A stretch of 23,290 nt of DNA, from IMG/VR virus record IMGVR_UViG_3300035034_001986, positions 1 to 23,290 of that record. One strand, written 5' to 3'. This DNA is from a virus. The position numbers and the translations under genes were made by a program. The notes under the pieces were generated by a model. That model worked only from the letters and a program-made list of their open reading frames with translations. It had not been told where the DNA came from and did no database searches. Shown piece by piece: positions 2,622 through 21,889 of this stretch. Numbering within the stretch: the stretch's first letter is position 1; each line of letters starts with the position of its first letter.

Positions 2622-3431
2622 ATGACTTCCAAACAAGTAGCAAAGAAAAAAGAAACAGGATTGACCTCATACAATTATGGAGACATGGCTGGAAAAGGTT
2701 TTGAAGAAGTATCAAAAGATGATATGGTCATTCCGTTTTTAAATATTTTGCAAACAAATAGCCCACAAGTTGACGATGATAGTATACCAGAAGCTAAAGC
2801 AGGTATGTTCTTCAACACCGCAACACAAGAGTTGTATGAAGAAATTGTTTTTCAACCCGTGTACAATACAAAGCATTTTGTTGAGTGGGTTCCACGGAAT
2901 GAAGGTGGTGATGGAGCTCCAGTTGCAATTTATGACGTTGATAGTGATGTTGTTGAAAAGGCAATTGAAAGCAACGGTGGTAACAAATATGGAGGCCTCA
3001 CTGTTAATGGTAACAATCTTGTTGAAACTCACTATGTCTATGGTAATTTACTGTCAGCAGATGGTAAAGACCTTCTCGATTTTGTTGTCCTTGCTTTTAG
3101 CAGCACTAAAATCTCACCTAAGAACAAGTGGTTTATGGGCATGATGAAAGTTCATAAAGATGTTCCTCTTATTGCCCATCGAGCAATTCTTGGAGCGGTT
3201 AAGCAGAAAAACAAACTTGGAACTTTTTACAATGTTGTGATCCAACCCCTTAAAGGTACATGGAAAGAGTCTTTGATTAATCCAGAAACTCAGAAGCACC
3301 TTCTTGATGAAGCTGTAGCTAATTTAGAAATGCTACAGGCTGGGGAAAAGAAAGTAGATTATTCACAACAGAATTCTTCCAATGGTGGTTCTGATCCTGT
3401 TGCCGAAGGAAATGACGACATTCCTTTCTAA
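2622..3431 (+). CDS. Single-stranded DNA-binding protein with acidic tail
   Basis: The protein has 269 residues from ATG 2622, chosen because AAAGGA at 2608-2613 lies eight bases upstream; the upstream in-frame ATG at 2595 is inside the heptamer repeats and lacks such a site. The last residues are GNDDIPF after a Gly/Ser/Gln-rich linker. This is the signature acidic tip of bacterial and phage SSBs, used to recruit replication partners. The core does not show a recognisable classical OB-fold pattern by eye, so it belongs to a divergent phage SSB group. It lies in the same operon as the SNF2 helicase and just before an intergenic hairpin. The SSB call rests mainly on the tail and the context. 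Confidence 0.7.
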   Translation: MTSKQVAKKKETGLTSYNYGDMAGKGFEEVSKDDMVIPFLNILQTNSPQVDDDSIPEAKAGMFFNTATQELYEEIVFQPVYNTKHFVEWVPRNEGGDGAPVAIYDVDSDVVEKAIESNGGNKYGGLTVNGNNLVETHYVYGNLLSADGKDLLDFVVLAFSSTKISPKNKWFMGMMKVHKDVPLIAHRAILGAVKQKNKLGTFYNVVIQPLKGTWKESLINPETQKHLLDEAVANLEMLQAGEKKVDYSQQNSSNGGSDPVAEGNDDIPF

Positions 3432-20234: not shown

Positions 20235-20318
20235 TTGGAAAATGACGAAATACGTGCCGATGTACGTAGTGAATATGAACAGCTAACAAAGTGGTTAGCA
20301 GCAACTGGGGATGTTTGA
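20235..20318 (+). CDS. Short acidic peptide, 27 aa, TTG start
   Basis: The frame from TTG 20235 reads ENDEIRADVRSEYEQ and ends KWLAATGDV, its stop overlapping the next ATG as TGATG. Composition and coupling look coding, but there is no clear ribosome site and the start could be lost; an ATG at 20228 is in another frame. It may be a remnant. Confidence 0.3.
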   Translation: MENDEIRADVRSEYEQLTKWLAATGDV

Positions 20319-20629
20319 TGAAATATGTAATGTTTGCAAATAATGGTGTTTTAGAAAAACACTTTATTAAGAGTTTTGGGGTATCTGTTAAAAATGATGA
20401 TAGTTGTGTAGGTTTCTTTGGAACTGGTCTAAAGTATGCACTTGCTATTCTTGTTAGGACTGGAGCACGAGTCGTTATTTACAGTGATAAAGAAGTGTTT
20501 AAATTTGACAAGGTTAAACAAGAACTAAAAGGTAAAGTTTTTGACTTTGTTACAATGAATGGGGAGATCATGCCTTTTACAACTGAGTTGGGTAAAACTT
20601 GGGAGCTGCTACGTTGGAATCAACGGTAG
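20318..20629 (+). pseudogene. 3'-truncated ATP-binding (GHKL-like) phage protein
   Basis: From ATG 20318 the 103 residues contain GVSVKNDD and VGFFGTGLKYALAILVR at 31-47, the glycine-rich lid pattern of GHKL ATPases, then FTTELGKTWELLRWNQR and a stop. Phage homologues that I recall continue with a REL..N..DE segment, so the gene appears cut right after NQR. The cut coincides with the sharp rise in GC content near 20630. It is probably the left half of a recombination or chimera junction. Confidence 0.45.
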
Positions 20630-20915
20630 CCAAGTACCCCGCTTGCTTCTTGCGATTGAGGGTTATCGGGTTATTGACACTGTGGCGGGCTTCATTCCGC
20701 AAGTATGCCACGGCAAGTCACATGGTTGGAGCGGCATTGCAGGCGGTGTAAATGGGTCGTTTGCAACTTGGAAGAAGGGTTACAAGCAAATGGAGTTTTG
20801 CCCACAAGCAACACGAGCGGCGGCACAAAACGTATTAGATGGGTACACTGCTTGGGCGGGTGAACGTATGGCTGACTACGGTGCAATCAAAGACGCTCGT
20901 AATCAATTGAAGTAA
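20559..20915 (+). pseudogene. 5'-truncated phage protein at the GC junction
   Basis: The open frame begins with an ATG at 20559, but up to about 20630 it only shadows the GHKL-like gene in another frame. Beyond that it reads LLLAIEGYRVIDTVAGF, then HGWSGIAGGVNGSFATW and AQNVLDGYTAWAGERM, which looks coding and has the GC-rich composition of the right segment. It is most likely the 3' part of a phage gene whose own start was lost at the junction. I do not recognise its function. Confidence 0.45.
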
Positions 20916-20967: not shown

Positions 20968-21885
20968 ATGGAAGTGTATTACAACGAATTTGACAAGAAA
21001 AAATGTGCCATGCTTTCACAGCTGATGAAAGACGGACATATAACCAAGGGGTATATTGATGACAGACCAATCCAAGACGTGCAAGCAGATGAGCTTGCAG
21101 CTTACACTAGATGCCACTTTTTCTCAGGCATCGGACTCTGGGATCACGCGCTTAACCTCGCGGGATGGCCTGAAGATAAACCCGTTTGGACAGGCAGTTG
21201 CCCCTGCCAGCCTTTTAGTCCCGCTGGACGGCAAAAAGGTAAAGCAGATGATAGACACTTATGGCCTGAATGGCTCCGCCTCATCTGCGAGCGCAGACCT
21301 GCAACAGTCTTTGGAGAACAGGTTGCAAGCGCAGTTACCCACGGGTGGCTTGATGATGTTTATCAAGGGCTGGAATCGGAAGGCTACGCCGTTGGGGCGG
21401 CTGTATTGCCAGCTAGCTCCGTCGGTGCGCCCCATAGGCGTGAGAGATTATGGTTTGTTGTCAAGCAAGCAAGTGGACAGCCCAGCAATGTGGTCAACAC
21501 CCAACACGATGGGCCATCTGCCCCAGCGCAGCCTAGAGGCTATGGACAGGCAATTTGCCACAACGAGGAAGGGGCGGACAGCGCCGTCAAATTTAAGGGA
21601 GCAAGTCAACCCAGCAATGTGGCCAACGCCAACGGTTCGGGACCACAAGGACACAGGGGACTTGAGCAAGAGCCAATTCAGAAAGGACGGCAAGGAGCGC
21701 AACGACACCCTTGGCAGAGTGGCATATGGGTTGACTGCCCAGACGGGAAACAAAGGCTCGTTGAACCCTCAATTCAGCTGTTGGTTAATGGGTATCCCGC
21801 AAGAGTGGCTATACTCCATGCAGCTGGCGATGCAATCGTACCACAAGTCGCCTCGGGGTTTATCATCGCCGCCTCAAAAACTTAA
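20968..21885 (+). CDS. C5-cytosine DNA methyltransferase (Dcm-like)
   Basis: The 305-residue frame starts after AAGGG (20956-20960). Methyltransferase motifs are in order: I FFSGIGLWDHAL (FSGIG 52-56), IV SCPCQPFSPAGRQ with catalytic C80, VI FGEQV (117-119; usually ENV), VIII APHRRERLWFV (154-164), and a final motif X-like GDAIVPQVASGFI. It would transfer methyl from S-adenosylmethionine to cytosine, probably to protect phage DNA. The region after motif VIII is Gln/Gly/Asn-rich and low in hydrophobics, and the other frame over the same bases carries the WPTP/LNP-type phage sequence (see 21059). GC content and codon use differ from the left 20.6 kb, so it was acquired separately. Confidence 0.85.
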   Translation: MEVYYNEFDKKKCAMLSQLMKDGHITKGYIDDRPIQDVQADELAAYTRCHFFSGIGLWDHALNLAGWPEDKPVWTGSCPCQPFSPAGRQKGKADDRHLWPEWLRLICERRPATVFGEQVASAVTHGWLDDVYQGLESEGYAVGAAVLPASSVGAPHRRERLWFVVKQASGQPSNVVNTQHDGPSAPAQPRGYGQAICHNEEGADSAVKFKGASQPSNVANANGSGPQGHRGLEQEPIQKGRQGAQRHPWQSGIWVDCPDGKQRLVEPSIQLLVNGYPARVAILHAAGDAIVPQVASGFIIAASKT

Positions 21886-21889
21886 CTAA
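21059..21889 (+). CDS. Overprinted ORF on the methyltransferase gene (WPTP/LNP-type)
   Basis: This 276-residue frame lies +1 inside the methyltransferase gene and covers nearly all of it. ATG 21059 has AAGGGG at 21046-21051, a good ribosome site. Its sequence is family-like throughout: SASADLQQSLENRLQAQL, then KGWNRKATPLGRLYCQLA, MWSTPNTMGHLPQRS, RKGRTAPSNLREQVNP, MWPTPTVRDHKD and GSLNPQFSCWLMGIPQEW. From memory these blocks recur in phage and prophage proteins annotated near cytosine methyltransferases. Either both frames are translated, or ribosomes shift +1 from the methyltransferase, or one frame is an old annotation shadow. Conservation tests would decide. Confidence 0.45.
   Translation: MTDQSKTCKQMSLQLTLDATFSQASDSGITRLTSRDGLKINPFGQAVAPASLLVPLDGKKVKQMIDTYGLNGSASSASADLQQSLENRLQAQLPTGGLMMFIKGWNRKATPLGRLYCQLAPSVRPIGVRDYGLLSSKQVDSPAMWSTPNTMGHLPQRSLEAMDRQFATTRKGRTAPSNLREQVNPAMWPTPTVRDHKDTGDLSKSQFRKDGKERNDTLGRVAYGLTAQTGNKGSLNPQFSCWLMGIPQEWLYSMQLAMQSYHKSPRGLSSPPQKLN

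Follow-up and report, generated by a model that had tools for sequence, protein, structure and literature searches.

The window analyzed here, the whole 23,290-base stretch of an IMG/VR phage record, contains two frames on the same strand that are overprinted on one another at positions 20968-21889. The longer of these, alpha, runs from an ATG at 20968 to a stop codon at 21883-21885; the second, beta, lies in the +1 frame and extends from TTG 21056 or ATG 21059 to a stop at 21887-21889 (276-277 aa). ATG 21059 is the likelier start, because the sequence AAGGGG lies 7 nt ahead of it. A first-pass annotation of this DNA had given the two frames these same extents (305 and 276 residues) and beta a ribosome site of its own, and the pairs of peptides that it had drawn from identical bases were confirmed by translating both frames. 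Upstream of alpha, the window encodes a helicase, a ribonucleotide reductase, a thymidylate synthase, a DNA polymerase, a primase, and an exonuclease. Directly upstream there is another overlapping pair of ORFs on the same strand, of which one (20291-20629) matches phrog_8203 and the other (20559-20915) is without any match. The features of the locus are:

20968-21885, + strand: alpha, putative catalytic subunit of a C5-cytosine methyltransferase, 305 aa (PF00145, phrog_363, and M.HhaI matches)
21046-21051, + strand: Shine-Dalgarno-like AAGGGG within alpha codons, 7 nt 5' of the beta ATG (from the sequence)
21059-21889, + strand: beta, encoded in the overprinted +1 frame, 276 aa with ATG 21059 as the start (phrog_1008, conservation tests)
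21202-21210, + strand: alpha motif IV, PCQ, with the invariant catalytic Cys80 (family alignment)
21424-21447, + strand: alpha motif VIII, GAPHRRER
21491-21502, + strand: first beta WSTP block, TRD-like
21617-21652, + strand: second beta block, MWPTPTVRDHKD, the same bases reading NVANANGSGPQG in alpha
21761-21808, + strand: beta block read as motif IX, LNPQFSCWLMGIPQEW, overlapping alpha RLVEPSIQLLVNGYPARV
21826-21846, + strand: alpha motif X, GDAIVPQ

Alpha has the attributes of a C5-cytosine methyltransferase: a PF00145 domain (E 3e-20), motifs I, IV (PCQ), VI (EQV/ENV), and VIII, and a sequence match to M.HhaI (E 4e-17). In the family alignment Cys80, Glu117, and Arg158/160 are invariant, and the motif X block reads GNAIVPQV in the family and GDAIVPQV in the window. 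The AlphaFold model of alpha matches the folds of M.HhaI and M.HaeIII; it is confident for a catalytic domain (residues ~1-167) and for the motif-X helix, with low confidence from ~174 to 245, the place expected for the TRD, and the segment between domain and helix is predicted to be disordered. Three rows from phage records were left out of the alignments used for structure prediction.

The conservation of the second frame was examined in 250 loci, comprising 80 viral loci retrieved by alpha alone, 160 retrieved by beta (80 viral and 80 from bacterial genomes), nine seeds, and the window; removal of near-duplicates left 209. Both frames are present, in the +1 register, in all 250. With tblastn, 165 phage records matched beta and 622 matched alpha, and in the records checked the matches of the two frames are co-located, for example at 25798-26547 and 25790-26689 in K1ind2. 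None of the 160 loci fetched with the beta profiles, in a search that favors close relatives, has a free-standing beta; all overlap alpha. Searched separately, as had been proposed, the two proteins fall into distinct PHROG families, phrog_363 for alpha (E 6e-63) and phrog_1008 for beta (E 2e-22).

The +1 frame of the window is open for 279 codons, whereas synonymous shuffles of alpha leave it open for 111 on average (p = 0.005, which is the floor for 200 shuffles), and in the same test the other sense frame is open for 31. Among 72 non-redundant relatives that had been fetched with alpha alone, a median of 286 of 315 codons are open in the +1 frame, versus 145 in the shuffles. A beta profile built from nine sequences, with shuffled synonymous codons of alpha as the control, gave median scores of 215 bits for the real genes and 80 bits for the shuffled ones, and every one of the 199 non-seed genes exceeded all of its own shuffles. 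The ~80 bits that persist in the shuffles are a shadow of alpha conservation, and hence raw similarity alone would overstate beta.

Both frames are conserved and under selection. At fourfold-degenerate sites where the alpha residue is conserved, differences among 86 independent pairs amount to 59% before beta, 36% between the region of the beta start and motif VIII, 33% across the TRD, and 17% over the motif IX region, and rise again to 50% past motif X (Wilcoxon p < 1e-7, 86 pairs). Alpha is under constraint at its synonymous sites only within the stretch that it shares with beta. In gene pairs that are 75-85% identical, the third codon position of alpha is the most variable ahead of beta (0.357); in the C-terminal half it is the first position of alpha, which is the third of beta, that varies most (0.203 vs. 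0.112 and 0.147). We also employed a conservative test that redraws only those codons that differ between two genes. When the C-terminal half of the window is compared in this way with locus L005, beta differs by 34% versus the 55% expected (z -9.0), and alpha differs by 50%. In the N-terminal half the effect has the same direction and is smaller, and for the window itself selection on this half of beta is weaker (z -0.9 to -4.7); over 92 pairs, 91 go in the same direction in each half.

A beta-frame start codon accompanied by a Shine-Dalgarno-like match of 4 nt or more, correctly framed and placed, is found in 76% of 194 loci versus 19% in shuffles. This ribosome site often coincides with the D-x-R-S-I codons of alpha, where the arginine is encoded by AGG in 48 of the 194 loci versus 9% elsewhere, and a stop near the beta start closes the beta frame upstream. 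The register, the openness of the frame, the synonymous constraint, and these start-site data all support the original suggestion of a conserved dual-coding gene.

Insertions were seen at three of the loci. In a Dokdonella MAG (JADJQH010000006.1), an intein-like insert lies in alpha exactly at the catalytic site, PC/CQ, and cuts the beginning of the beta frame away from the remainder, which is open, suggesting that the N terminus of beta is dispensable; downstream of it there is a HEARO RNA (RF02033, under the gathering score) at 2800-3035. In the record IMGVR_UViG_3300035698_013655, an insert of ~590 nt (about 2378-2967) follows FGEQVASAV and holds, in the frame of beta, an HNH-like ORF; the alpha frame is open across the insert, beta restarts with a Shine-Dalgarno site at 2917, and a search of the insert against Rfam gave no intron match. 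In Gammaproteobacteria UBA7966, an inserted HNH-like ORF separates the motif IX of beta from the motif X of alpha, and the alpha frame is again open.

The methyltransferase motifs are partitioned between the frames. Motif X is found in alpha at 196 of 209 loci and in beta at one; motif IX is found in alpha at none of the 209, and alpha does not have the IX and X in one chain that mark a standard single-chain enzyme. Because of this uniform absence of motif IX, alpha is best considered a subunit and not a complete standard single-chain enzyme. Beta contains TRD-like WxTPxxRDxKD blocks and the sequence LNPxxxxWLMGxPxxW, whose WLMG block is present at 189 of the 209 loci. By its position and by its likeness to single-chain actinophage enzymes, in which the corresponding block and then motif X occur in one chain, this sequence is read as the conserved motif IX. 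When beta was aligned by hhalign with single-chain sequences, only this short block matched, in the actinophage enzymes, and the canonical P0094 and Matisse sequences gave no match; the equation with the known motif IX depends on one short conserved block. Searches of beta against Pfam, NCBIfam, and PDB sequences gave nothing meaningful, and for its N-terminal third no relative was seen outside the overlap. Predicted alone, beta gives a poor model (pLDDT 60, pTM 0.25) that is better around motif IX and a central segment, and comparison of this model with PDB folds returned no match. A subunit that takes up its fold on a partner could give a lone model of this kind, though this is no proof; since the model is poor and has no structural match, the folding of beta as a small domain is something that we infer.

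We think it very probable that the locus specifies a split DNA (cytosine-5) methyltransferase, with a catalytic alpha and a separately translated beta that contributes the TRD and motif IX in trans. Alpha would fold as the large AdoMet-binding catalytic domain, with motifs I-VIII and a C-terminal motif X helix, and its interval between VIII and X would be without a folded small domain. Beta, presumably initiated at the internal ribosome site and read in the +1 frame of the alpha gene, would provide the target-recognition region and motif IX and would pair with alpha to form one active enzyme, which most likely methylates the phage's own DNA as a protection against host restriction. As an alternative to dual coding, the first-pass annotation had proposed a frame switch through which one product family gave rise to the other. 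Part of this idea survives, in that the C-terminal part of beta (TRD and IX) corresponds to a piece of a C5 methyltransferase and the frame of IX and X varies among relatives; however, the best reading of beta is that of the subunit which alpha lacks, and not that of an alternative methyltransferase.

A programmed +1 frameshift after motif VIII would generate a single chain with motifs I-VIII, the TRD, and IX, and the order of the elements is compatible with it: the TRD and motif IX directly follow motif VIII in the +1 frame, and in phage Shida the alpha frame stops after VIII and the +1 frame holds IX and X. We nonetheless regard such a product as very unlikely. The second frame of a programmed frameshift would be without an independent start, but beta has one, with its enriched Shine-Dalgarno-like site (76% of loci vs. 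19% in shuffles) and an upstream stop that closes the frame, and the N-terminal half of beta is constrained as well. Motif X, moreover, remains in alpha, and therefore the fusion would be without it. The +1 shift that had been envisaged near 21450 is thus unneeded.

It is decidedly improbable, too, that beta, though a genuine overprinted protein, does something else, be it the regulation or inhibition of alpha or an unrelated task, and that alpha is a complete methyltransferase. Alpha does possess all the catalytic motifs and motif X, and the lack of Pfam or NCBIfam matches to beta and of relatives of its N-terminal third outside the overlap agrees with such a view; but this leaves motif IX missing from every alpha and present in nearly all of the betas (189 of 209), alpha is predicted to be disordered at the expected place of the TRD, and there beta is better conserved than alpha when the window is compared with its closest relatives. 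Finally, we give next to no credence to an artifact in which the second frame merely reflects alpha conservation and base composition. Since shuffled alpha genes still score ~80 bits, part of the raw tblastn similarity is indeed a shadow of this kind, but the real scores surpass all shuffles in 199 of 199 genes, the fourfold-site constraint starts and stops with beta, and the start-site enrichment is independent of both these results; the codon shuffles and the conservative redraw test rule out a shadow of alpha conservation.

The putative split methyltransferase can be set beside more distant enzymes. In single-chain controls the +1 frame has 14 stops (Dcm of E. coli K-12), 12 (Matisse), and 11 (P0094). 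Matisse and P0094 have both IX and X in the main frame; in Dcm motif X was seen and the motif IX pattern used gave no match. Second frames full of stops, which the first-pass annotation had named as evidence against dual coding, occur only in these distant single-chain enzymes, whereas all 250 close relatives keep both frames. Inside the canonical enzyme of Streptococcus phage P0094 there is a 139-aa +1 ORF (1430-1849) annotated as a "DNA methyltransferase," with 141 codons open versus 66 in shuffles (p 0.003); this "second methyltransferase" was considered as a relative of beta and rejected as unrelated.

In split relatives from phages of Paenibacillus, Bacteroides, Stenotrophomonas, and Erythrobacter and from an N15-like element, motif IX is in the +1 frame and X in alpha. 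In mycobacteriophage Shida, alpha ends after VIII and both IX and X are in the overlapping +1 frame; in Graduation and ReT1v-2 both are in the main frame and the +1 frame is not significantly open. In a small tree of the catalytic domain, the main split group clusters with Rani and BKO1-TP3 (87/85) and the branches elsewhere are long; that the split arose once is plausible without being proven. We suggest tentatively, and with rather less than even confidence, that the overprinted alpha/beta pair is the standard form of a large class of methyltransferases in phages of Proteobacteria, Cyanobacteria, Firmicutes, and Bacteroidetes, and that IX and X have moved between the overlapping frames to give no fewer than three arrangements, one with IX in beta and X in alpha, one with both in beta, and one with both in alpha. 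If this is true, frame-switching, and not gene fusion or fission, redistributed the enzyme's domains between two subunits.

In the deposited annotations of Rhodococcus phage ReT1v-2 and Erythrobacter phage ZS04 most of the methyltransferase frame is uncalled, and in that of ReT1v-2 the +1 frame is called instead. In Krischvirus LF73P4 both frames appear to be shifted together in the TRD region, so that the N-terminal part of beta becomes continuous with motif X of alpha; this joint shift is either a sequencing error or the mark of a decayed gene. Both overlapping frames are annotated in GenBank for Kagunavirus K1ind2 ("putative C-specific methylase" and "putative Mte8-like protein") and for Paenibacillus phage Rani (gp51, "g50 Internal gene"), without a functional link or a selection test between them. 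The families phrog_363 and phrog_1008 are both labeled "DNA methyltransferase" and kept separate, and their matches are silent on their being two frames of one gene. Our literature search found no paper that describes or explains this overprint in phages.

The hundreds of loci constitute an unusually large set of a long and deeply conserved same-strand overprinted gene pair from phages with double-stranded DNA, and they could serve to measure how two proteins evolve on shared bases. If the layout of M.EcoHK31I is the normal one in a widespread phage family, many database entries for a "DNA cytosine methyltransferase" would be half-enzymes whose partner is missing or is listed as a protein in its own right; a synthetic, codon-optimized version of just the annotated gene would then be predicted to lack activity.

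The small subunit of M.EcoHK31I, about 176 aa long, is encoded inside the large-subunit gene in another frame, and both subunits are required in vitro; M.EaeI resembles this enzyme. M.EcoHK31I (YGGCCR) is described as a two-polypeptide C5 methyltransferase (Lee, Kam, Shaw 1995, as cited in PMC3404938). According to PMC3404938, its large subunit holds motifs I-VIII and X and its small subunit holds IX, and the same account places its predicted TRD in the large subunit; in the cited literature it is an exception among C5 methyltransferases. Compared by description, the layout of our locus is similar, with I-VIII and X in alpha and IX in beta, and here also the gene of the small chain lies inside that of the large chain in another frame, which is +1 in 250 of 250 loci. 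Unlike M.EcoHK31I, however, the locus is phage-encoded, with no neighboring restriction enzyme noticed in the window; beta, at 276 aa, exceeds the M.EcoHK31I small subunit in length and extends back over motifs I-IV; and the TRD-like blocks are in beta. By structural criteria only, then, the locus may work like M.EcoHK31I. M.AquI (CYCGRG) is also an alpha/beta C5 methyltransferase, with a natural two-chain split within the variable region (PMC3404938). Our locus shares with it the division into two chains, but the beta of M.AquI has both IX and X, whereas here X is in alpha and both chains are encoded on the same DNA; phage Shida, unlike the window, looks M.AquI-type, with IX and X both in the second chain. 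What is new here is the extent of the overprint, the evidence of selection, and the varying motif partition, in a kind of system that was already known.
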